NCBI RefSeq assembly: GCF_018687715.1
Contig: NC_056757.1
Span: forward strand, 23,287,501 to 23,351,500
Direction: 5' to 3'
DNA: 64,000 bases
DNA from: Carya illinoinensis
Lineage: Eukaryota > Streptophyta > Magnoliopsida > Fagales > Juglandaceae
Below are positions 1 through 56,943 of this stretch, one piece after another. The notes under the pieces were generated by a model that worked only from the letters and a program-made list of their open reading frames with translations, did no database searches and had not been told where the DNA came from. The position numbers and the translations under genes are program-made. How positions within the stretch are numbered: position 1 is the first letter of the stretch; each line of letters begins with the position of its first letter.

Positions 1-114
1 AAAGTTTGGTGAATGATGATACTTCTCTTTGGGGTCGAGTTGATATTGCCTAAACTATCATTTGTTTTTCTTTTTTTGTTTGAGGACAAACAAAGTTGTA
101 AGTTTGGGGGTATT
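1..114 (+). mobile_element. Ty3/gypsy internal region, 3' end with polypurine tract
   Basis: The window opens inside an LTR retrotransposon. The last bases before the LTR (about 98-112) contain a purine-rich tract ending AAGTTTGGGGGTA, preceded by GAGGACAAACAAAG. This arrangement is characteristic of the polypurine tract in front of the 3' LTR of plant Ty3/gypsy elements (Tat/Athila group). No coding sequence is recognisable in this short piece. The rest of the element lies to the left of the window. Confidence 0.7.
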
Positions 115-1437
115 TGATGGCTTGCAAAATTTCATATTGCAGATTTTACAAGTTCGCTCGAGCGGAGGCTCTTGGCCGCTCGAGCGAATTCAGGCAGATT
201 CAAACGCTCGACTGCCGCTCGACAGGGAGCTCGAGCAGGTTGCTGAAAAACGAAGATCGCTCGAGCGGAGACATTGGCCGCTCGAGCGAAATCAGGCAGA
301 GTCGAACGCTCGATGTGCACTCGATAGGACGCTCGAGCGAAATCAGGCAGAGTCGAACGCTCGACGCGCGCTCGACACCCCGCTCGAGCGAACATCGTAT
401 TTTGACAGATTTTAGGTTTTCCGCCGTGGGACCATATAAAAGGCCATTCTTCACTCTAGAGCCGCGGTTTTTGACTGGAGAACACTCTTTGGGAGAAAAA
501 AACATAACTAGAGGGATTCAAATCATTTGTTTTGGAGACGGAATTCCAATTTATTGCACGTACGTTGGATTCATACACGAGCACGGACGGGAGAAAGGCG
601 TTGAATCGTTCCCTTGAGCTTTTGACGACCAGTTGAGGCTGCAAGGAGGATTTTTCAGTGTTTATTTTCTTCTTCCCATCTTCTCAGAACAATTATGGTG
701 AATTCGTTTATGTTGAATTCCAATTCTAGCATGAGCTAAATTTTCTTCTTTCTAGGAAAACGATGTAACCTAATTCCGAACTATGCTTGTTTGTCCATGC
801 TAATTTAATGCAATTCTCTATTTGTTTATCTGATTTATTCTGAGTTTAATGCTTCTAATTAACTGGCCATTGATTAGATGATTATTAATCTTGTGATTTG
901 CTATCGAAAGAGGGAATCATAGGGTAGATCTTGGACATTTCAGCATAGGTAAGTATAGAGATCGAAAGACTTGTATGAACCTGTGTAGTAATTAAATCAT
1001 TGGTCTTATTGCGTTCTTGATTATTTAATTTGCATACTCTTGTGTGAATTGATAAACTAGAATCACTTCCAATTGACTATCGAAAGAGGCTTTTGGATGA
1101 ATTAGAGATTTGCTAATAGACAAAAGAGGTTTAAGTTAAATTAGCTGGATGAGAAAAGCATAGTGAAGAATTATGGTGAAATCGATTTCCTAGAAGGTTT
1201 CTTCCCCATTGAATTTGATCTTTGAAAGTCAGTTTTATTTTCTTTACTTATTTCTCTTTGAGTTGATCTAAGTTTATTTGCAACTACAAAAACCTTAGCG
1301 ATTCCTCTAGATAAAATTGAGATTAGTAAAATTTTGGTATTTGGCAAGAGTAAGGTACCAATCCCTGAGGACGATACTCTACTTATTACTTTACTATAAA
1401 ACTACGATACTGTGCACTTGCAGTTTTGCACCGGTCA
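115..1437 (+). mobile_element. 3' LTR of a Ty3/gypsy element (plus strand)
   Basis: A 1.32-kb LTR begins with TGATGG directly after the polypurine tract and ends CCGGTCA, giving TGA...TCA termini. The end (AAACTACGATACTGTGCAC, then TTGCAG) matches the style of Tat/Athila LTR ends. A TATA-like box (CATATAAAAGG, about 435-445) follows the CTCGAG-rich array, so the array lies in U3. The right boundary coincides with the point where the copia reading frame on the minus strand is broken (after K-P-V-G-T). The Ty3 element therefore appears to have inserted into the copia element, and the remaining copia 3' part should lie left of the window beyond the 5' LTR. The expected 5-bp target duplication would be the GTGTG at 1438-1442; its partner is outside the window. 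Confidence 0.75.
149..393 (+). repeat. CTCGAG-rich palindromic repeat module in the Ty3 LTR
   Basis: Seven CTCGAG sites, mostly as GCTCGAGC, are interleaved with CGCTCGAC and the core AATCAGGCAGAGTCGAACG. They form two to three imperfect units of about 75-110 bp. The array is CpG-rich in an otherwise AT-rich LTR. The same module recurs in the copia LTR at 4921-5150 on the other strand. In both LTRs it lies upstream of the probable TATA box and is followed by GAGCGAACAT and then TTCCGCCG. Confidence 0.9.
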
Positions 1438-4400
1438 GTGTGCCAACTGGTTTGGCCTTGTCCATATTGAATCTGCTGAGTACCTTTTTCACATACTCAG
1501 CCTGTGAGAGTCTCAACGTACCTCTGACTCTGTCTCTGACAATTCTCATGCCAAGGATTTGCTTTGCAGCTCCCAAATCCTTCATTGCAAAGTGCTCTGA
1601 CATCTGCTTCTTCAGATTATTGATCTCATCAATACTAGCCCCTGCAATAAGCATGTCATCCACATACAACAGCAAAATAATGTAAGAATTGTCAAAATGC
1701 CTGACATAGCAGCAGTGATCTGCCTGACATCTAATATACCCTGCACTGTGCATGAAGTTGTCAAATTTCTTATACCACTGTCTAGGAGCTTGCTTCAGGC
1801 CATACAAGCTCTTCTTCAGTCTGCAAACTGAACCTTCCTTTCCCTATACCACAAACCCCTCAGGCTGGTGCATGTAGATGTCTTCTTCAAGGTCTCCATG
1901 AAGAAAAGCTGTCTTCACATCTAACTGCTCAAGAAATAGATCTTCAGTGGCAACCATAGCCAGTACCATCCTGATAGTTGTGATATTTATCACAGGAGAA
2001 AAGATCTCAGAGTAATCAATACCTTGCTTTTGCTGAAAGCCTTTTACAACAAGTCTAGCCTTGTACCTCTTACTGCCGTCATGCTCAGTTTTCACCCGGT
2101 ACACCCACTTGTTGTGTAATGCCTTCTTCCCTGATGGAAGTTCTGTCAACTCCCATGTCTGATTCCCTAGCAGGGAATCCATCTCGTCTTTCATGACCAG
2201 CTCCCACTTGCTAGAATTCTCATCTTGCAAAGTTTCTTCATAACTCTGCGGTTCTCCACCATTTGTCAACAAAATGTAATTCAAAGTAGGTGAGAAACAC
2301 TGTGGAGGACGTATAGTCCTAACTGACCTGCGAACTGCAACTGTAGGAGTAGACGGTTCTGAAATTGCCTGCGGAATAATAGGAATGGGTGCACTGGACC
2401 CACTCTCCCCGTCACTCACATCTCTACATTGCACTGTGACCTCTGGTAGGTCATCCAATCCTACAAACTCGGACTCCTGAGGAGCTACTGCAGAAGCTGT
2501 GCTCGACTTATCCTTGTACATCATTTTCTCATTGAAAATCACATTCCTGCTTCTTATGATTTTCCCACCCTGATCATCCCAGAAACGATAGCCAAATGCC
2601 TTGTCTCCATAGCCAATGAAATAGCATTTCTTTGACTTAGCCTCAAGCTTACTACGAGCATCAGAATCAACAAGCACATAAGAAAGACAACCAAAGGTTT
2701 TAAGGTGAGAAAACTTAACCTCTTTCCCGCTCCAAACCTCCTCAGGCAATCCACAATCCAGTGAAACTGATGGCCTTCTGTTTATCAAATAAACGGCAGT
2801 GCTGACTGCATCTGCCCAGAAAGTGGGTGGTAGTCCAGTGTGCAACCTCATGCTTCTAGCACGCTCATTAATAGTCCTGTTCATACGCTCAGCAACTCCA
2901 TTTTGCTGTGGTGTCTCAGGAATGATCTTCTTCATTCTGATACCCAGAGCTGCACAATACTCCTTGAACCCGCCATCAACATACTCACCACCATTGTCAG
3001 ACCTCAAACACTTCAGTTTCAAGCCTGTCTCTGTCTCAACCATGGCTTTCCAAATTTTGAAAACATTAAATACTTCAGATTTATGTTTCAAAAAATAAAT
3101 CCATACCTTCCTACTATGGTCATCAATGAACGTAACATAGTAGCGAGAACCTCCAAGAGATGCAACTGGGGAAGGACCCCACACATCTGTGTGCACAAGA
3201 TCAAGTCTTCCTGTCTTTGGCGTCCTGCCACTTTTCAAGAAGCTGACCTTCTTTTGTTTCCCCATAACACAACTCTCACACATACCGAGATCAACTGTCT
3301 TCAGTTCTGGTAGCTTGCCTCTAGACAGAAGTTCCGTCATGCCCTTCTGACTCATATGGCCAAGCCTACAATGCCACAAATCTGCTGTGCTCTCTGCAAC
3401 GGTAGTAGCAATAGTGTCAATTAAACCAGTAGTCATATATAGTGTACCAGTTTTCTTACCCCGAGCTAGTACCAATGCCCCTTTTGTGACCTTCCAGGTG
3501 CTATCTGAGAACACCACTGAATGATCACACTCATCAAGCTGCCCAACAGAAATGAGGTTCTTCTTCAACTCAGGAATGTGCCTGACCTTTTGCAAGGTCC
3601 ATTTGTTCTTGCCAGGGAGTGCAATGCCAATGTCTCCCATCCCCACTACGTTCAAAGCCTCACCATCAGCCAAATATACCTTCCCAAAATCACCTGTAAC
3701 ATAATTCCGCATTAGTTCCCGGTGGGAAGATGTATGGAAGAAAGCCTCTGAATCCAGTATCCAGTCATCAACTGGACTATGAACTGCAAGCAATAGTGCA
3801 TGCTGTACTTCTTCAGTTACCACATTAGCACTATCATTCTCCGTCTTCTTGGGGTTTTTGCAGTTTTTCTTTATGTGGCCAGTTTTGCCACAATTCCAGC
3901 AAGTTGCCTACTGACCAGGCCTCGACTTGCTCTTGCCCCTGTACTTTGATTTTGATCTTCCTCTGTTTGAGTTCCTGTCATGTGATCTCTCTCGAGAATC
4001 AACATTTAGGGCTAAACTCAAACCCGAGGTCTCACCTGAATCTTTCCTACGCACCTCCTTAGCCAAAATCAAATCACGAATATCATCATATTTCAGTTTA
4101 GTTTTACCAGCAGAATTACTAACAGCCATTCTCATGGCTTCCCAACTATTTGGCAATGAAGCCAATAGTATCAGTGCACGTATCTCAACATCAAATTCAA
4201 TTTCAACAGACGACAATTGATTTGTGATAGTATTAAAATCATTCAGATGTTGTGCAACAGACGTACCATCTGCCATTTTCAAATTGAATAACTTTTTCAT
4301 CAGATGTACCTTGTTATTCGCTGACGGCTTTTCATACATACCTGACAAAGCCGCCATGAGATCCGCAGTCGTCTTTTCCTTGATGACGTTGTGTGCAACG

Positions 4401-4609
4401 GATCTCGACAGGGTTAATCGAATAACCCCCAGAACCTGTCGATCCAACAGGTTCCAACTAGCATCATCCATCTTTTCCGGTTGCTGCCCCAATAGTGGAA
4501 GATGAAGTTTCTTCCCATAGAAGTAGTCCTCTATCTGCATCCTTGAGTATCCAAAATCCGTGCCATCAAACTTCTCGATCCCCGATACCTTCAATTCATC
4601 TCCAGCCAT
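1438..4609 (-). pseudogene. Ty1/copia gag-pol polyprotein, interrupted
   Basis: This is a single-frame copia polyprotein starting at ATG 4607-4609, right after the primer-binding site. Gag occupies 4609-3911. A CCHC zinc knuckle (CWNCGKTGHIKKNC) lies near 3855-3900. A degenerate protease motif follows (WILDSEAFFH, where DSG would be expected). The integrase zinc segment (HCRLGHMSQKG) and a DDE core come next: HTDVWG, SDNGGEY and an E in NGVAERMN. The reverse transcriptase has KARLVVKGF, LDVKTAFLHG and an intact YVDD. Two in-frame TAG codons break the frame, at 3908-3910 between gag and the zinc knuckle and at 1844-1846 inside RT. The frame otherwise stays open. RNase H and the 3' LTR are absent because the Ty3 LTR interrupts RT at 1437/1438. 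Superfamily assignment is secure; activity is very unlikely given the stops, the altered protease and the insertion. Confidence 0.95.
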
Positions 4610-4630
4610 CGTTTCTCCTCAGACCCGAAC

Positions 4631-4648
4631 CTTGGCTCTTGATACCAA
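4631..4648 (-). other. Copia primer-binding site
   Basis: On the minus strand, TTGGTATCAAGAGCCAAGG lies one base inside the 5' LTR. It is a near match to the TGGTATCAGAGC type site that pairs with the 3' end of initiator methionine tRNA, as is usual in plant copia elements. It fixes the inner boundary and the direction of the element. Confidence 0.85.
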
Positions 4649-4649
4649 T

Positions 4650-5174
4650 TGTTGTGAAAAACGATGACAAAGAATTGAGAGATAATAACGAACGAGAAAA
4701 ACAATCACACACGCAATCACATACGACACAAGATGTACGTGGTTCGGCAAATTGCCTACGTCCACGGGAGCTGCAGATGATTTTATTATTGAGGAATACA
4801 CACTACAAGATGGATCTCAACACTGTTCGTCCACGGTATTTTTCGTGTCTACAGTACCCAGACATAAGAGTCAAAAATCACATATATAGTTCAAACGGCG
4901 GAATCCCTAAAATTGTATGTTCGCTCGAGCGGCGTGTCGAGCACTCGTCGAGCGAACTTCCCTTCCGCGTCCTGCTCGAGCTCACTGTCGAGCTGATGTC
5001 GAGCGTTCGACTCTGCTTGACTTCGCTCGAGCGGCCAATGCCTCTGCTCGAGCGAACTCCTCCCGCTCGAGCTCACTGTCGAGCTGACGTCGAGCGTTCG
5101 ACTCTGCCTGACTTCGCTCGAGCGGCCAATGCCTCCGCTCGAGCGGTGTGGACCAGACTCCACAGTACTCAACA
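4650..5174 (-). mobile_element. 5' LTR of the copia element
   Basis: A 525-bp LTR with TGTTG...CAACA termini (TGTTGTG at the plus-strand left end, CTCAACA at the right end). It sits directly next to the primer-binding site. Its U3 half, on the right in plus coordinates, holds the CTCGAG-rich array. A TATA-like stretch (AACTATATATG) follows the array on the minus strand. Immediately outside, at 5175, the sequence becomes RING-H2 gene sequence, so the first bases there (CTTTT) are the expected target duplication. Its partner is out of the window. Confidence 0.85.
4921..5150 (-). repeat. CTCGAG-rich palindromic repeat module in the copia LTR
   Basis: Seven CTCGAG sites lie in two units about 91 bp apart. 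Each unit contains GGCATTGGCCGCTCGAGCG and the core GTCAGGCAGAGTCGAACG (minus-strand reading). The module has the same elements, order and orientation relative to its LTR as the array at 149-393, although that LTR belongs to a different retrotransposon superfamily. Confidence 0.9.
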
Positions 5175-5518
5175 CTTTTGAAGAACATGGTGAAATCTGT
5201 GCTCCAAGTGGTGGGTGCAACTGGGAACCCTGAAAATGTAGAAGAAGCAGGCGACCCAGAGAATATTGCAAGGGATCAGAGAAGAGTTTCAACAACACGG
5301 TTCAAGTCTTTGTGCCACAACTGCAACATTGCAGGTGTTGGTGCTAGTACTATTGGTAGCATAATTTCAATGGAGTGCTGTGTTTGTCTGTGTAGGTTTG
5401 AAGCAGATTAGGAGGTGAGTGAGTTATCCTGCAAGCATTTCTTTCACAAAGATTGCTTAGAGAAATGGTTTGAAAACAGGCATATTAATAACTGCCCTCT
5501 CTATCGCTCTTTGGACTA
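5175..5518 (+). pseudogene. XERICO/RHA2-like RING-H2 protein, 5'-truncated pseudogene
   Basis: The frame starting at the copia boundary reads LLKNMVKSVLQVVG, then TTRFKSLCHNC, then a RING-H2 domain. The zinc ligands begin CCVCLCRF and continue SCKHFFHKDCLEKW. This order (a short hydrophobic N-terminal segment, a T-x-R-F-x-S-L-C motif, then RING-H2) fits the XERICO-type plant E3 ubiquitin ligases involved in abscisic acid and stress responses. Three lesions are visible. The 5' end is removed by the copia LTR at 5174/5175. A TAG at about 5409-5411 falls inside the RING. The last cysteine pair reads CPLYRS instead of CPLCRS, losing a zinc ligand. The product would not be a working ligase. The missing first codons are predicted beyond the nested transposons to the left. 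Confidence 0.75.
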
Positions 5519-5731
5519 GATTTCCATGGTTTTAGTGGGTGGAAGAAGGAATGCTAGCTCTTGTCTTTCATTTTTCTCTGTTGCACTTTCTTCTCTCTGT
5601 TTCTTCTTTTTTTCTCTACCTTCATTATATATTTCGTCCTCGAAAATCTTGTCTTCTGAGAGTTTTGGGAGCAGGCGTCTTTGTCGACGTTTATTCTGTG
5701 ACGTAAGAAACGTATACGTTTTTTCCTTTCG

Positions 5732-9539: not shown

Positions 9540-11580
9540 TCAGCCACTCTCTCTCTTGCAATTCCCAGGCAACAGAAACTTATACTTTTCTGCATTGTCC
9601 AAAAGATATGATGGAAGATGAACAGCTGAGAAGGAATGAGGAACGGGTCCCATTTTCCCTATGATATCTTTAAAGGTGTATGCCTCCGGAAGCATATCAA
9701 ATAAATCAGCCCCCTTGCAGATTACATCCTGGACTCTTTCTGGGTTCAAATAGTGGGAGAACCTAACTCTATCGTTATGGCTGTACGCTTTCATCTTAAA
9801 TATAAAATCACTGATCCGGCGGAAGCAAAAGCTACAATGCCAACCTGCATCTGCCAAGATGTCATCTGTCTGACGATAATGTGCATACCTTGTCTTAGCC
9901 CTTTGATACCTGTGGACTGAAGCTCTCCAGCTGTTATCATCCACATGGAACTCAAAAGAGTAAAGATAGTTCTTCAGCTGAAGATGAAGGATTGGAGGTA
10001 TATCATCACACCACCTCAAGAGATTGATAGTGTGTCTGCTTGGGATCTCATCAACATCAGACATTATCAACAAGTCATCATCATCAATACCTGCTTTTTT
10101 GAGAAGCACATCCAATGCCACTCGCTGATATGCCTCCTCAATAAATGGGTTTTCTCCTTTCTTAAATCTCCCCCCAATGTTCCCATAAGTCAATCGGGGC
10201 TCAGCAAATTTGAACTGATCTCGATGACTAGCAAAAAACAAAGGCTTTGGCAATCCAGTGAACGTTGAATTTGACTCGAGGAGAACAAATTGTGTCACAT
10301 AAGGATACAATTCTTTCCATCGTACTTCAAGGATTTCCTTCTCATTACTGTACAACACTGCATCAAAGACACGCCTTGGGAATTCACGCACTCCCCAACC
10401 GTGAAGCTTGCACTGGTTCTCCATCGACACATTCTCATTATAATAGTGAGGAAGTACATGAAATGGTTTGGGTGGTGATTCCCATAGTGGCCGCAGGAAG
10501 TACGAGATCTTCTGCCCATGCAAATAGATGAAAAAGATGCACGAGGGAACGAATGCGAAAAGAAATATTAAGGTTTTCACGTCCAAGCCACGCAGAACAC
10601 AGCGAAGTCTCGACATGCTTAAAAATCGAGTTGATTCCTGCCACATCAAATAAAAGAAAATTTCAAAAAATTAAAATGAGAAGAACAATGAAGCACATTG
10701 ACATGACAACAGTAAGCATCTCTATTTACAATAAGCAAAAGAAGAGAAATTTGCTTTTCTTTACTAATTATTTAACTGCTCGTTAACTTATCTCTCATAC
10801 CCACGAGACTGTATAGATACAAACATGACCATAACAACAATTAACCTGAAGCAACAAAAGATGTAATGCCTAAAATCAAAATAAAAAATTCTAATTTTGC
10901 TTCAGTTGAGCGACACCCAGTTCCATGGACCCAAAAGCAGCGAAAACTGAAGTAATAAAGTTCAATTTAGGCACTAGAGAAATATTCATTCGATATAATC
11001 AGCTGCTTTGAGTGAAAATATCAAAAATATTCTTATAAAACAAACAACGCCAACAGAATAAAAATAATATTGGAATTACTAACTCTAATTCTAAAATAAA
11101 TATCCAAAAAAAAAAGGAAAAAAACCTAAACCGCTAAAATATCCACAAGCGTAGCATAGCAGGGAACTTCTACAAAGTAGATCATGCCAAACCTCCGTTT
11201 GAAAAATGAGGAAAATCAAATCATATATAACAAAAATATTTGAACCTTATTTTTAACTCCAAAAAAAATGGAATTTGAATGGGTGAAAACAAAAAGTTCA
11301 TGGACTCTGATTTTCCTCGAAGATCCACTTCTTCGATTTTCCTCAGCAACCAAACATTCTCAGAAAGCAAAACCCAATCACATAACTATTTAAAATAAAT
11401 AAATTAAAAAACAGAAACCTTTACCGAACAAACAGATCAATGGTCTATATCAAACACTTAACCCTGATTTGAGAGAAGCATAAAGAGATAGGGAAATACC
11501 TGCCCACAAACATTGCCGCAAATATCATCAGTTTTCTTGTTGCAGTAATGGCCTCCGTTCTCACCCATCATCCACCACAT
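9540..11580 (-). CDS. GT17 family glycosyltransferase (MGAT3-like), two exons
   Basis: Coding exons are complement 11500-11580 (27 codons, starting ATG 11578-11580) and 9540-10637 (365 codons plus stop), giving 392 residues. The intron 10638-11499 has GT (CAG|GTATTT) and AG (TGTGGCAG|GAATCA) borders and falls between codons. The protein has a cysteine-containing N-terminal segment ([12 protein letters not shown]). A single membrane anchor follows at about residues 50-68 ([19 protein letters not shown]), consistent with a type II Golgi protein. The catalytic region contains [14 protein letters not shown], then [12 protein letters not shown], and a DVDEIPSR motif (DxD at about 221-223) that would bind the metal and nucleotide sugar. 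The family is annotated as beta-1,4-mannosyl-glycoprotein 4-beta-N-acetylglucosaminyltransferase. The plant enzymes' true acceptor is not evident from sequence. The frame is intact and of normal length. A TATA-like AAAATATAGAG lies upstream on the minus strand near 11784-11790. The substrate is uncertain; the family is secure. Confidence 0.93.
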
Positions 11581-41034: not shown

Positions 41035-41425
41035 TCGGGCAGTCCTTGACCTTTCCCTTTTTCATGGGAACCTCGAGTCGTTTAGGCTCGTCATTGGTAT
41101 TTTAGGGTGGTGTGGTCTAATGACTTCCGTGCCCTTTTTACATGGCACTGCGAGTCGTTTAGACTCATCATAGGTTTTTAAGGGTGGCATGATCTGATGA
41201 CTTTCGTGCCCTTTTTACATGGCACCATAAGTCGTTTAAGCTCGGCATAGGTGTTTAAGGATGATGTGGTCTGATGATTTTCGCACCCTTTTTATACAGC
41301 ACCGCGAATTGTTTGGACTTGTCATAAGTGTTTAAGGGTGGTGTGGTCTGATGATCTCCACGCCCTTTTTACATGGCACTGTGAGCTACTAAGGCTCGTC
41401 ATTGGTGTATGGAGGGATACTTGAC
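41035..41425. repeat. 77-bp tandem repeat, about five copies
   Basis: GCCCTTTTTACATGGCAC and its variants recur at about 41054, 41131, 41208, 41285 and 41362, an exact 77-bp step. Each is followed by a GAGTCGTTTAGACTC-like block and GGTGTTTAAGGGTGGTGTGG. The array abuts the truncated integrase end of the Ty3 element at about 41525. The 39.75-41.03 kb and 41.43-41.52 kb flanks hold no recognisable coding sequence and may be noncoding retroelement DNA. Confidence 0.9.
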
Positions 41426-41524
41426 TGCACTGTTGTGGCAGGACGCTGAGTTCAATCGTCACGATAAATTTTCACTAAAAACCAAATAGGCTAGTGTAAT
41501 ACAAATGACAAGTTTAAGATTTGT

Positions 41525-44500
41525 AAACTTGAGCTATTCCACTAGAGTGTGGAGAAGCCTACCAATGTCCCTCTTCAATTGTGGCCAATAATATCGCTTG
41601 GCAACCAAAGCAATAGTCTTGTCTCACCCCACATGACCTCCCAAACCTTCACCATGTAACTCACGTATCATATGTTCATGTAGAGAAATCCGTGGGATGC
41701 ACAGTTGGTTGCCATGAAATAGACAGTCATCTTGAATACGGAAATCTGCCATAGGTAACTTGAGTTTGCACTTCTTCCAAGTCTCGGGAAAGTCATCATC
41801 TTCAACATAGAGATCTTTGAGTTGCTCAAAGCCAATAATTTCAGTCTATAGGGTGGCCAAATGTTCCCCCCATCGGCTGAGGGTGTCTACAACCTTGTTG
41901 TGCTGACCTGACCTATACTTAAGGACCATAGTGAATTTTTGTATTGCATTCGGTTTATGTGGATTTGAGTATTAATTAACTTCAACGCATGGTGGTCACT
42001 ATACAGCACGAACTCACTTTGGACCAAATAGTGCTCCCAATGTTTTAAAGACCTAATTATCACGTAGAACTCAAACTCGTAGATAGTCCCCTTGCACCTT
42101 GCTTTGTTTAATTTTTCTATGAAAAATTCAACAAGTGAGCCTTCTCGTGAGAGAACGGCCCCAATGTCAATAGTGGAAGTATCGCACTCTACTTCAAATA
42201 ATTTTTCAAAGCTGGGCAGTGCAAGAACTGGGGCTGTAGATAACTTCTCTTTAATGACAGCAAAGCTCATGTCTTGTTCATCACCCCACTGAAATCTACC
42301 CTTCTTCATGCATTCATTAATTGGTGCCGCTAGAGTGCTAAAATTTTGAATAAACCGCTGGTAGGAAGTGGCTAGTCCATGGAAGCTTCGAACTTGCCTA
42401 AGGGATGATGGGCGTGGCCACTCTCGGATAGCTTGAACCTTTGCTTCATCCACATGAATTCCATCTGCACCAACAAAGAAAACTAGAAATAGTAATCTGT
42501 TGGTGATAAAATTGCACTTCTTTATATTGATGTACAACTTGCTCTCCCTTAGAACTAAGAGCATTTCGCGTAAATGCACCATGTGTTGTTGTTTATCTTG
42601 GTTGTACAGGAGAATAGCATCAAAATATACAACAATGAACTTGCTAATGAAAGGCTTGAGAGTTTGGTGCATGACCCTTATAAAGGTGCTGGGTGCGTTG
42701 GACAAGTCAAATGGCATGACCAGCCACTCGTAAAGTCCTTCCTTTGTCTTGAAAGTTGTTTTCCACTCGTCGCCTAGTCAAATTCTTATTTGATAGCCAC
42801 TCCTTAAATCAAGTTTCGAAAAAATTCTTGAGCCTGCAAGCATGCCTAGCATGTCATTTAATCACAGTATATGAAATCTATATTTTATCATGATTTTATT
42901 AATGGCACGACTGTCCACGCACATCCTCCAACTACTATCCTTATTTGGAGTGAGTAAGGCTAGAATAGCATAGGGTCTCATACTCTCACGAATCAGCTCC
43001 TTGCAAATGAGGTCCTCGACTTGATCTTGAAGAATTTTGTGCTCATTAGGACTCATTCAGTAATGTGGCAAGTTGGGGAGACTAGCGCCTGGTACCAAGT
43101 CAATGCAGTGTTATATGTCTCGCATGGGGGTAGACCAGTCGGCAATTCATTAGGAGTAATGTCCGAAAATTCTTCAAGTAGTTGTTGAACATGGGGAGAA
43201 AATTCGGGAACAACCTCTTCAGTCCTCCCTTTCACCACCAATGTTAAAATTTCTCCATTCTCTTTTGCATCCATCAGGAATTGATCTTTGGTTACTATAA
43301 GAAAATTATTCTTCTTCTCAAGCACTGCTACTTCATTGGACTTCTCTCTCGTGGGCAACAACACCACATTCTTTTCCTACCACCAAAACGATTAAGTGTT
43401 GTCATGCCCCTTATATGTGGCGTCCACATCAAATTGCCACTACCTTCCGAGCAACACGTGACACGCGTCCATCTCCACCACGTCATAGTCTGCTACATTG
43501 TTATAGAATTTTTCAATTGAAAATGGAACTCGACAAGTAGTGGTTACCTTAGTCTCGGCACCCTTCTTTATCCAATTGATCTTGTATGGCCTGGGATGCT
43601 TCTCTGTGCTTAGTTGTAATGTAGAAACCAACGCCTTTGACACAATAGTTTCACAACTCGTACTGTCAATACTCAAATTGTAAACTTTTTGATTAATGGT
43701 GCAATGGGTTTTGAAAATAATGTGCCTCTGGGTATGATCCACAAGCTTCAGCGTTAGGAGGAGTCTTTGAATAACGCAATTCACTAGGTCACCCTCATCA
43801 CCTTCAACGAGTTTGTCTTCTTCCACTGACTCCTCTTCATTCTCCTTGGTTGAATCCTCACCATCCACCATGTTAATGGCTCTTCGAGTAGGATATTCGT
43901 TGGAGTGATGTCTTAGCTGATTGCAGTGAAAACACTTGCCACTAATAGGCTTGTTATCAGGGTTTTGGTTTAGGCTTCCCCTGCTCCCAGTTGGAGTGGC
44001 ATTGGATTTAGGAATCTAGTGAATACTTTGCATCCTTTGGTCACGACTGGAGGAAGGGACGTGTGGTGGATTTCATTGAGTTGGTGGTTCAGTTCCTCTG
44101 TTTGCCTTGCATTGCTTGGTGACCTAGTTGGGGGGCGGGTAAGTTATTAACTCAATTTTCATAGCCAAACTGCTTCTGATAAGGTCCATATAGTATGCAA
44201 GGTGACCTTGTCCTGGATGGCAACATGTAGTCCCCCAATGTACCTTGTCACTTGCTTCCCATCAGTCTCTGAGAATTCAATTGATAAAATTCTTCAGTAT
44301 ATTCATTGATAGTCCTTTCTACCTGCTTGCAATTCTGGCATTCTTGGTACAAGAGTTGTTCATAGTTTGGTGGAAGGAATTGTTCCCTCATCAACCTCTT
44401 CATTTTGGACCATACACAGACGGGTTGCTTACCTTGGCGTCTTCAGTTGTTATGCGTTTGTTCCCCCCAAGCTGATGCTCCACCCCGTAGCTTGTAGGCT

Positions 44501-44960
44501 ACTAACTTAACTTGTTGATTTTCTTGTATTTGCATGTAGTCAAAGAATTTTTCCACTTCCAATAGCCAATCAAGAAAACTCTCAGCTGAAGATGACTGTT
44601 GAAACATGGCAAATCAATTTTGATTTTGAAGTTGGTATTGCCATCACAACCCCTTTGATTTCCTCCTTCCGCCAAGTCTTCGAATTCTTCATCGTTAGAG
44701 GAGTTGTCTCCACCAAGGTTTAGTGGTGGTCGTCTGGGTTCCCTTCCTCCACCTGGATGAGCCCCATCTCCTTGCCTTCCGTTTTGGTCCCCATTGCCCT
44801 CCACATGGACATTGGTGATGGAGCTTTTAATTTCTTGTAAAATGCGTTCAATCCCCTCAAACCACTGCTGGTTTTGTTGGTTTTGGGTTTGGATAGAGTT
44901 CCAAAGGGCTTGCGTGCTAAGGTCCTCATTCCTGTGTTGGTTGCCTTCGTTTCTTGCCAT
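41525..44960 (-). pseudogene. Ty3/gypsy gag-pol (chromovirus-like), 3'-truncated and mutated
   Basis: In minus-strand order there is a gag start (MARNEGNQHRNEDLSTQ) at 44960. A zinc knuckle reading CFHCNQLRHHSNEY has tyrosine in place of the last cysteine. The protease site is NLSIDSTSCETIV (DST for DSG). RT begins [12 protein letters not shown] and has an FDA motif ([10 protein letters not shown]) where YxDD is catalytic. RNase H reads [12 protein letters not shown]. The integrase zinc-binding part reads IRELHGEGLGGHVG, then YYWPQLKRDIGRL. Integrase stops at about 41525, so the DDE core and 3' LTR are lost. Stops and frameshifts divide it into several open pieces (44502-44960, 43440-43871, 43053-43367, 42862-43056, 41887-42717). 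Wording of RT and the primer site suggest a chromovirus, but the chromodomain end is missing. Confidence 0.9.
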
Positions 44961-44969
44961 TGATTCAGG

Positions 44970-44991
44970 CGAAACCTTGCTCCGATGCCAA
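44970..44991 (-). other. Ty3 primer-binding site
   Basis: On the minus strand, TTGGCATCGGAGCAAGG immediately follows the LTR end. It is a degenerate match to the initiator-methionine-tRNA site TGGTATCAGAGCAAGG. Confidence 0.75.
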
Positions 44992-44992
44992 T

Positions 44993-45365
44993 TGACGTAG
45001 CTGAAACGTACAAAGAATAAGAAAATTCAAAAAGAGCTATGTCTTCCCAAATAACTAGTCACAAGTTTTATTGATAAAACTTTGCAATGCTTACAATATT
45101 CAAAGATGATTGCTGACTATCTATCCCATATTCGGTCCTCTCATATAGAAGAAACCAAACTAAGGAAACTTATTTGGAAAGGAAAGATATTGCTAGCACA
45201 ATAACAATTAAAGAAACTTTATTAAAAGGAAATTAAAACATGATCCTTTTAGGAAGCTGTCAAACACCTCATTTGTTCACGGCTACATTTCCTGATTCAT
45301 TTTTGGAAAGTCACATGCTGCCCCAATCTCGCCTGCTGCATCAGTCAGGTCCACGGGTCATGTCA
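44993..45365 (-). mobile_element. 5' LTR of the minus-strand Ty3 element
   Basis: A 373-bp LTR bounded by TGACGTAGC on the left and GGGTCATGTCA on the right (inverted TGACRT termini), next to the primer-binding site. The matching 3' LTR was not found in the window, consistent with loss of everything beyond the start of integrase. Confidence 0.7.
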
Positions 45366-54257: not shown

Positions 54258-56943
54258 ATGAAGTTTATGAAACTCGGATCTCGTCCAGATACTTTCTATA
54301 CTACTGAGGCTGTAAGGTAAGAGTACCTCCGCTTGAACAAGTGGTTACATTTTAACTCAAGGAATATACTATACGAGTTTCTTTTTTCTTAATTCAGGTC
54401 AGTCTCCTCTGAAGTCTCTAGTGATCTTATAATTCAGGTGAATGGAAGCAAATACTTGCTTCACAAGGTAAAGTTAGAAACCTTTCATGAGAACTTTTAA
54501 TCTTTGTGTTTAGTTTAGGATAATTTAGTTTGATAAATGATGCTATTCAGTTAAAAAATAATCTGTGTTCTCTTAAAAGTGACTCATATGCGTTCATGGC
54601 ACAGTTTCCTGTTTTGTCCAAGTGTTTGCGCCTGCAGAGGCTGTGCTCTGAATCTCCCGAATCCTCACAAAATCAAATATTCCAACTTCCCGATTTCCCT
54701 GGTGGCGTTGAAGCATTTGAATTATGTGCAAAGTTTTGCTATGGTATTACAATTACACTCAGTGCCTACAACATTGTATCTGCTCGGTGTGCCGCTGAGT
54801 ATCTGCAGATGACAGAGGATGTTGAGAAGGGGAACCTAATATACAAGCTGGAAGTTTTCTTCAATTCCTGCATTCTTCACGGGTGGAAGGATTCCATTGT
54901 GACATTACAAAGCGCCAAAGCCTTTTATTTGTGGTCAGAAGACCTTGCAATAACAAGCAGATGCATTGAAGCAATTGCTTCAAAAGTCTTAAGTCACCCC
55001 TCAAAGGTTAGTTTGTCACATAGCTATTCCCGGCGGGGGAGGGACGATATATCATGCAACGGTGCAGAGAGTCAGAGATATAAACCAGAAACGATGGGTT
55101 GGTGGGCAGAAGATATAGCAGAATTGGGCATAGACCTTTATTGGAGAACCATGATAGCAATTAAATCTTGTGGAAAGGTACCGTCTAATCTTCTGGGAGA
55201 TGCATTGAGAATCTATGCCTCCAAATGGCTGCCCAACATATCAAGGGATGGATTTGTGAATAAGGAAGCAGCATCAGACTCTGATTCAGACTCAATTGTT
55301 GGGGTAACATCAAAGCATAAGCTGATCTTGGAATCAATAGTAAGCTTACTCCCAGCAGAAAAGGGTGCTGCTTCTTCTGGTTTCCTACTTAAACTCTTGA
55401 AGGCAGCCAACATCCTAAATGCTTCTTCTTCTTTAAAGATGGAATTGGCCAGAAGAGTGGGTCTTCAGTTAGATGAAGCAAGAGTCAGTGATCTGTTAAT
55501 ACCCTCTCTATCATATTCGAATGACACACTATATGATGTAGACATAGTCATGACCATATTGGAGCAGTTCAAGTTACAAGGACAGAGCCCCCCAACTAGT
55601 CCTCCAAGATCAAAGCTGAAAATTGAAAGGAGAAGGTCTCGGTCTGCAGAAAATATTGAATTTGAGTTCCAGGAGAGTAGGAGGTCCTCTTCAGCTTCTC
55701 ATAGCTCAAAACTGAAGGTGGCAAAGCTTGTAGATGGGTATCTTCAAGAGATTGCTCGGGATGTGAGTTTGCCTTTATCAAAGTTTATTGCAATATCTGA
55801 AGCCATTCCCCACTTTGCAAGGCTGGACCATGATGATCTCTACAGAGCAATTGACATTTATCTCAAGGTAAATTAACATGATGGCCACCTGATTTTTCAG
55901 ATTGTCCATAATTCACAGTAATAGATCAAAATTTTTCAGGACACATATCACTGTCACATAGTGGAATGTGGATCACTATTTCCAGTAGATAACCAACTCT
56001 TATGACCTTGAAGTCTTGTCGCCTCACAATTTGTTTGCAGTTAGGATTAGGCTGAACGAGCCAAATTTTGGCATATGTGGAATTTTGTTTTGGATGGTAG
56101 TACCAGAATTTCTGTAACTAAGGGTCTGTGGTTTGATGTGATTCAGATTTCATTTGCTGACCTATAAATATTTCCCAAAAACATGCCTAGATAATAAATA
56201 GGATTTATAATTGCACATCTTATATTATTTCCTAGGCAGGTGAAAAAGTTGAAAAATCGTGTCTGCAATCTTATTTGGCTTACTGTCAATTTTCTTTGAT
56301 TTAGACTTCTACTTCATAGGAACAATTGAAAATCAGCAGGATTTGACTGGTGTGTCTTCCTTATTTTTCTTTGAATTAAAGAAATGGAAAACAAACTATA
56401 TGCGTGTGTGTGCGTGTGTGAATTTCAGATCACTATTGTTCTTATCCCTGAAAAATCCAGGCTCATCCAGATCTCAACAAGAGCGACAGGAAAAGGTTGT
56501 GTCGAATCCTAGACTGCAAAAAGCTATCAATGGAGGCGTGCATGCACGCTGCACAAAATGAGTTACTCCCCTTGAGAGTGATAGTGCAAGTTCTTTTCTT
56601 TGAGCAAGCGCGGGCCGCCATGACTGGTGGTAAAGTGACTGAGCTGCCTAGCAATATTAAGGCACTCTTGGCCACACAAGGAATTGATCCATCAAGGCCT
56701 CCAGCACCATTAAGTACCACTACCACCATTCTAGCTGAGGACCAGTGGAGCGTCTCTGGCCTTAAATCACCAAAGTCAAGCATGTCAACTTTAAGGATGA
56801 AGCTGGCCGAGGATGATGACTTGGATGACCATGACATTAGCAGACATGCTAGGCTTAAGACTCCCTCTGCTCTTCCTAACAGACCCAAAAGGATGTTCAG
56901 TAAGTTGTGGTCCATCAACAAAAGTGCCAGTGAAAAGAACTGA
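54258..56943 (+). CDS. BTB-NPH3 domain protein (NPH3/RPT2-like, NPY-type start), four exons
   Basis: Exons are 54258-54316, 54398-54467, 54605-55867 and 56461-56943, giving 624 residues. All introns have GT-AG borders (AAG|GTAAGA / TTCAG|G; AAG|GTAAAG / GCACAG|T; AAG|GTAAAT / TCCAG|G) and phases agree. The protein starts MKFMKLGSRPDTFYTTEAVR, a form shared with the NPY/NPH3 clade. A BTB domain follows at about residues 28-130 (DLIIQVNGSKYLLHKFPVLS is its start). The NPH3 domain starts near residue 205 (GWWAEDIAELGIDLYWR). An Arg/Ser-rich linker at about 380-405 follows, then a conserved C-terminal part of the domain (DGYLQEIARDVSLPLSKF, HPDLNKSDRKRLCRILDCKK). The family acts as substrate adaptors of CUL3 ubiquitin ligases at the plasma membrane in phototropism and auxin-linked organ development. 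The specific role here is not deducible. The gene appears intact and of usual length. Confidence 0.95.

Follow-up and report, generated by a model that had tools for sequence, protein, structure and literature searches.

How do two long terminal repeats (LTRs) from different retrotransposon superfamilies come to carry the same promoter-like sequence? The question is raised by a 64-kb window of the Carya illinoinensis (pecan) genome (C6:23287501-23351500), which is the whole stretch of DNA studied here and which opens with the end of a Ty3/gypsy element lying in a Ty1/copia element. The LTRs of both elements hold, in their U3 part, an array of CTCGAG sites followed by a TATA-like box, and array and box belong to one homologous cassette, while the LTR tips and the R and U5 regions (R-U5) show no gypsy-copia similarity above shuffled controls.

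The CTCGAG arrays and the elements that carry them

Each array has seven CTCGAG sites (157-383 in the gypsy LTR, 4924-5138 in the copia LTR). The first-pass annotation of this DNA, made from the letters alone, had proposed that both are built of the same compound unit, and the motif counts and a colinear alignment bear this out. In LTR orientation the arrays align with a local score of 241 and with 197 of 226 aligned columns identical. This score exceeds the maxima of three control sets, which are dinucleotide shuffles (54, n=300), spacers shuffled with the motifs kept (119, n=1000) and permuted unit blocks (191, n=1000), and the similarity goes beyond that of CTCGAG-rich repeats in general. 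The GCTCGA columns are identical in 77 of 77 cases, against 120 of 149 spacer columns, the motifs anchoring the alignment. With up to three mismatches, TCAGGCAGAGTCGAACG occurs five times in the window and GGCATTGGCCGCTCGAGCG four times, all inside the two arrays (shuffle means 0.05 and 0.00, respectively); the GGCATTGGCCGCTCGAGCG copies are exact in the right array and carry 1 and 3 mismatches in the left one. The last unit ends with GCTCGACAC.CCGCTCGAGCGAACAT in both window LTRs, and both arrays are followed by GAGCGAACAT and TTCCGCCG, as had been annotated. The best blastn match of the window LTRs joins 155-427 to 4895-5145, and no match of the pair outside the array stretch reaches E < 0.1.

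The features of the two elements, in window coordinates, are the following:

1..114, plus strand: 3' end of the gypsy internal region, with the polypurine tract (AAGTTTGGGGG) adjoining the LTR; from the sequence, with the same context in L033, L072, L073, L075, L076 and L078.
115..1437, plus strand: gypsy 3' LTR, TGATGG...GGTCA, 1323 bp; right border by GTGTG on both sides, left border by comparison with the 5' LTR.
149..403, plus strand: CTCGAG array in the gypsy U3, with the TCAGGCAGA unit repeated three times; from array alignments and motif counts.
404..480, plus strand: gypsy core promoter portion of the cassette, with TTTTAGGTTTTCCGCCGT, ATATAAAA at 434-441, and on to about +40; from the sequence and homology in diverged copies.
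1438..1442, no strand: GTGTG target-site duplication left where the gypsy element entered the copia element; GTGTG at both outer LTR ends.
1438..4649, minus strand: copia internal region (gag, integrase and reverse transcriptase (RT)), with broken frames and the gypsy insertion within the RT region; from profile matches, continuing past the gypsy element in L037.
4650..5174, minus strand: copia 5' LTR, TGTTGAG...ACAACA, 525 bp; partner 3' LTR at L037:7316-7826.
4845..4920, minus strand: copia core promoter portion of the cassette, with GAACAT..TTTTAGGGATTCCGCCGT and TATATAT at 4882-4888; from the sequence and homology in diverged copies.
4921..5150, minus strand: CTCGAG array in the copia U3, made of two 91-bp units and an end unit; from array alignments and motif counts.
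5175..5180, no strand: CTTTTG direct repeat abutting both outer copia ends, a likely target-site duplication; from the sequence.

GTGTG is present at both outer ends of the left element, and copia sequence starts directly after the right-hand copy, which shows the gypsy element to be nested in the copia RT region. The gypsy 5' LTR is located before the window begins, from L031:659 on, and 341 of the 342 visible bases of the LTR pair are identical. Most of the interior of this copy reads N, and the Ty3/gypsy class is therefore taken from family copies with the same LTR. Two of them, L032 and L033, have Retrotrans_gag (1.2e-22) and an aspartyl protease; a third, L036, has RVT_1, RT_RNaseH and then rve, which is the Ty3-type order, and its own two LTRs are 99.9% identical to each other and 97-98% identical to the window LTR downstream of the array. 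Through these copies the left LTR is classed as that of a Ty3/gypsy family, presumably Athila-like to judge from motifs and the primer site.

In the same family the LTR starts of L032 and L033 are about 5.5 kb apart with gag-protease as the only recognised coding part, and those of L036, which has pol, are 8.5 kb apart; the LTRs are similar. No frame longer than 120 aa lies between the gag-protease frame and the 3' LTR of L033, so that a shorter gypsy form exists, which is probably non-autonomous. Of 10 gypsy LTRs, five have two TCAGGCAGA units and five have three; unit number was rejected as a mark of age, old and young copies being mixed.

The right element has its domains in copia order (Retrotran_gag_2 (2e-27), gag_pre-integrs, rve, SH3_retrovirus and RVT_2), and in one frame rve at 236-332 precedes RVT_2 (1.3e-34) at 582-686, which places the integrase ahead of the reverse transcriptase. 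It is classed by these profiles as a Ty1/copia LTR retrotransposon, which we take to be Tork-like, likewise from motifs and the primer site. The CTTTTG repeat at its ends has 6 bp, and a length of 5 bp is usual for the target-site duplication. The copia LTR pair is 94% identical over 523 columns; with the gypsy pair at 341/342 and the gypsy element nested, the copia element is the older of the two and the gypsy insertion the younger. Just outside the copia 5' LTR, at 5175-5520, there is a broken frame (..MECCVCLCRF..CKHFFHKDCLEKWF..), presumably RING-finger-like from its motif, and the copia element may have landed in or beside a RING gene or pseudogene.

The assignment of the two LTRs to different superfamilies, as first annotated, holds, with the copia body domains on one side and the domains of the gypsy family on the other. 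A local artefact, in which the left LTR would also be copia or a misassembly would have joined the pieces, has next to no probability and is refuted: LTR ends, lengths, polypurine tracts and proteins all differ, direct repeats stand at the outer ends of the elements, and the same cassette types recur at dozens of places across contigs.

The arrays also differ from their surroundings in composition. The arrays have CpG observed/expected ratios of 1.55 and 1.42, and the window has a ratio of 0.59. Between the two LTRs of the window copia element, the 251-bp array stretch has 14 differences, of which 9 are CpG transitions, and the other 271 bp have 5 differences with no CpG transition. Such decay would fit methylation of the array, where CpG sites are also far commoner; the high CpG density reported by the first-pass annotation is thus found again, and the methylation control read from it gains only indirect support. 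RNA folding of the arrays in LTR orientation (149-403 and 4911-5150) gives z values of -4.5 and -5.8 against dinucleotide shuffles, a stability due to the palindromes, which the shuffles did not keep. For an open frame that crosses the left array there are three matches, among them a hypothetical protein of Carya illinoinensis (85% identity, 68% covered, E 8e-50) and an unnamed ENA protein (97%). The protein search with the copia array frame found no match among 10 candidates, and the exact module patterns had no match in viral contigs and genome contigs.

Extent and genomic distribution of the cassette

Further loci were sought by sequence similarity over the 674-Mb assembly of 17 contigs, every query being an array or an array-bearing LTR and the matches being ranked by similarity. 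With the gypsy array as query, the best 40 of 2078 first-look candidates were scored and all were 99-100% identical; with the copia array, the best 40 of 2708 were all 95-100% identical. A diverged gypsy frame, for which the best 150 of 6337 candidates were scored, gave 232 places, with 70-90% identity among the matches listed and at least 13 pairs spaced 8.3 to 8.6 kb. A diverged copia LTR gave matches of 69-87% identity among the best 40 of 1855 candidates, setting aside the query itself and short end pieces.

The arrays found in this way all sit in one of the two LTR types, with one locus partly masked. Gypsy LTR flanks are present in 29 of the 30 gypsy loci that were cut and the remaining one (L009) reads N there, and copia LTR sequence lies on both sides of the array in all 30 copia loci. 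In a scan for CTCGAG clusters over L001-L038 and the window, the sole cluster outside the two LTR types was L029:233-394, which has two CTCGAG sites in unrelated sequence. Locus L002:94-466 was considered as a third carrier family and rejected: in a gap-tolerant alignment it is 86% identical to the window copia LTR in the array and 84% in R-U5, which makes it a diverged member of that copia family.

The borders of the cassette were placed with a diverged set of 10 gypsy LTRs (of the 232 places) and 16 copia LTRs (of the 40), which gives 160 gypsy-copia pairs. The gypsy LTR starts at 115, and several comparisons (blastn, flank checks and trees) took slices from 117. From the array end to the TATA box, 122 of the 160 pairs score above the shuffled 99th percentile; from TATA+7 to +46, with the box excluded, 101 pairs do so, and from TATA+7 to +30, 88. 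None of the 160 pairs passes from TATA+40 to +80, and none is above shuffles in a mismatched control region. Against the stricter shuffled maximum, 65 pairs pass between array end and TATA and 50 over the 46 nt from TATA with the box included; both TATA+46 to +146 and the stretch from the LTR start to the array have 0/160. The clearest pair, L072 and L002, has TTTAGGGTTTTCCACCGT in both members, TATA and then TATGGCCGTA; its score is 70, and neither of two sets of 1000 shuffles goes above 39. A gypsy-copia likeness in R-U5 (0.73 to 0.82, in few gap-rich columns) was rejected as an artefact of free gaps, the shuffle tests over the 160 pairs being decisive. From a point 30-41 nt inside the LTR the cassette reaches to about 40 nt past the start of TATA, which would be close to the transcription start expected from usual TATA spacing. 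With this onset and with homology running through TATA to about +40, the cassette, roughly 300 nt long, amounts to a near-complete U3, formed by an enhancer-like array and a core promoter. The shared regulatory-looking cassette that was first noticed as an array therefore recurs genome-wide and is wider than annotated. Its role as a promoter or enhancer is predicted from its place upstream of a TATA-like box, and an enhancer role for the array itself is suggested by where it lies, by its repeat structure and by the identity of its motif columns.

The order of the units is conserved along with the sequence. Among the diverged LTRs, all 10 gypsy members and 13 of the 16 copia members have a first unit of the ATT form (CAGATT or CAAATT). 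A second unit was matched by the pattern in 10 of 10 gypsy and 13 of 16 copia members, and each of these units is of the AGT form. Position-specific variants of the unit are kept across both LTR types. Tandem repeats are common in the U3 of LTRs, as the available part of PMC3601003 describes, and a convergent growth of CTCGAG-rich simple repeats without common ancestry would draw on this tendency. Against it stand the identity of the spacers, the kept unit order, three control sets that all remain below the score of the alignment and a homology that reaches into the non-repetitive core promoter; convergence is refuted by the array controls and the 160 pairs, and has practically no probability left.

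Cassette trees were built with 38 rows (13 gypsy and 25 copia) and with 37 rows (11 and 26), with a midpoint root and no outgroup. The 38-row tree leaves out 9 of 47 cassettes that the start or end pattern failed to cut (window gypsy, L033, L021, L042, L043, L044, L049, L059 and L060), and L040 and L067, being LTRs of the window element itself, were not added a second time; the 37-row tree leaves out 2 of 39 (window gypsy and L033) and uses 7 copia loci of L041-L069. The window gypsy array is absent from the rows, which include its close relatives L036 and, in the 38-row tree, L015 and L029. Gypsy and copia rows fall on opposite sides of one branch with 100/100 support.

Two observations were made on other gypsy copies. 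At L074:1-191, the CTCGAG array of one gypsy LTR is interrupted by a second gypsy LTR of opposite orientation, which starts at 192; this is reminiscent of the targeting of palindromes reported for nested elements in the accessible part of PMC6911290. The LTR of L076 has, on the downstream side of its core promoter, a stray GCTCGACAGTGAGCTCGAG patch in place of about 26 unrelated bases of other LTRs; the patch is an ectopic copy of an array piece within the same LTR. Elsewhere in the window there is a second Ty3/gypsy remnant (41055-45026, minus strand), with RVT_1 and RT_RNaseH at 41887-42777, beside which the 77-bp tandem array at 41055-41408 is a different repeat. Host genes of the window encode a glycosyltransferase family 17 protein (9540-10670) and an NPH3-family protein (54524-55876).

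Origin of the cassette

The two superfamilies split far earlier than a noncoding stretch of such similarity could last, and vertical descent of the U3 is therefore no serious option. The pattern of U3 exchange or LTR swapping, a homologous U3 joined to non-homologous R-U5 and internal regions, is found here at the level of sequence comparison. Since a single branch separates gypsy and copia cassettes, one old transfer suffices. As to its direction, one family may have received the cassette from the other, or both from a third source; the copia side has many poorly resolved old lineages and the gypsy set is shallower, which hints at copia as donor, within a similarity-based sampling and a midpoint root.

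The reading that we favour, with a confidence slightly better than even, is one old transfer of the U3 cassette by template switching during reverse transcription between the Athila-like gypsy and the Tork-like copia family in the same host lineage. When LTR elements are reverse-transcribed, synthesis passes from the R region at one RNA end to that at another. The RNAs of both elements would have been co-packaged in one particle, where the polymerase would have switched template at or near R onto the 3' U3 of the other element and switched back near the 5' end of the U3, before the polypurine tract. The recipient would thereby gain the donor promoter, which is the array of palindromic GCTCGAGC and related GCTCGAC sites plus the TATA core promoter to about the transcription start, and would retain its own LTR tips, polypurine tract, R-U5 and primer site. 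The cassette would have passed once, long ago, between families that have both multiplied since, and the array may bind a host activator that serves both. Among the mechanisms considered, template switching between co-packaged RNAs would best fit the borders of the cassette.

A DNA-level exchange, in which the U3 would have been moved by gene conversion or recombination between nested elements, is rather unlikely. Nesting brings gypsy and copia arrays within a few kb, as in the window and at L002, where a gypsy copy lies inside a diverged copia LTR; palindromic repeats recombine readily, and the stray GCTCGACAGTGAGCTCGAG patch downstream in the L076 LTR would agree with such events. The window arrays are, however, in inverted orientation, and the tracts would need to end just inside both functional LTR borders, although selection could give the same borders because LTR tips must fit the integrase. 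The nest in the window cannot be the cause of the split, since the nested gypsy element is young (341/342 LTR bases) and the cassette split is deep.

A common third source, from which both families would separately have taken the cassette, be it another element, a satellite or a host promoter, is unlikely to the same degree. Searches ranked by similarity could have missed a third carrier, and the trees have no outgroup. This origin would, however, need identical unit order, end unit and extent twice, and the lone cluster outside the two LTR types among the loci scanned (L029:233-394) is unrelated sequence.

Several points weigh against a single transfer by template switching. It needs two switches between RNAs of different superfamilies, and no report of cross-superfamily packaging was met. 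Among the loci read there is neither a recombinant intermediate nor a donor, and the trees are without an outgroup. The homology of the core promoter is unclear in 38 and 59 of the 160 pairs, which do not exceed the 99th percentile, and under the shuffled maximum its segments pass in only 65 and 50; these pairs are linked by common descent and are not independent. The downstream comparison is borderline in one of four pairs (L072/L054, with 26 of 1000 shuffles as high). All queries contained the array, and the matches bear on where the arrays that were read lie, not on the presence of the array in every copy or on the number of carrier families.

A broader and quite unlikely idea is that the cassette is open to free exchange as a promoter module and marks out a regulatory guild: within a host lineage, the U3 of LTR elements from different superfamilies would evolve as a network and their proteins as a tree. 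The palindromic array may in that case promote its own exchange, because the U3 at the 3' end of both RNAs offers identical self-complementary GCTCGAGC stretches at which RNAs of different elements could pair.

Relation to known systems

If true, a near-whole U3 common to Ty1/copia and Ty3/gypsy elements, with element-specific borders, means that promoters cross the deepest division of plant LTR elements. It suggests that mobile elements may hand on-switches to one another, and a single host factor could awaken two superfamilies together. LTR trees and protein trees need not agree, and the cross-packaging of different superfamilies in shared particles becomes testable. The printed cases of retrotransposon recombination that were found lie within families or between close partners. 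A literature search on CTCGAG arrays, chimeric LTRs, LTR swapping and cross-superfamily exchange gave no U3 shared by copia and gypsy among the matches listed; LTR or U3 swapping is already known and its crossing of superfamilies is unusual.

Tnt1-type elements have U3 tandem repeats with a possible role in transcription (PMC3601003), and the available part of that source mentions neither a CTCGAG unit nor sharing with Ty3/gypsy. In Onsen/Copia78 bursts, LTR recombination is consistent with template switching in R, with one event in U3; as far as the accessible part of the article goes (PMC5668417), this happens within one family, whereas in pecan two families without other LTR similarity above shuffles are involved. 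The element complexes of Triticeae, whose chimeric LTRs are modelled from co-packaged RNAs switching at R, are described in the part of PMC1950507 at hand as Angela-like copia elements with three LTRs and not as an exchanged U3.

Pararetroviruses in partnership are alike in the region-specific exchange of regulatory DNA between different reverse-transcribing entities of one host, but they are not two LTR-retrotransposon superfamilies. A further likeness is with soybean, where Du et al. in 2010 reportedly described LTR swapping between retrotransposon partners. In that case LTR sequence is reported to be exchanged between distinct elements that then amplify, the partners being related, while in pecan the sharing is confined to the U3 and links elements of different superfamilies.

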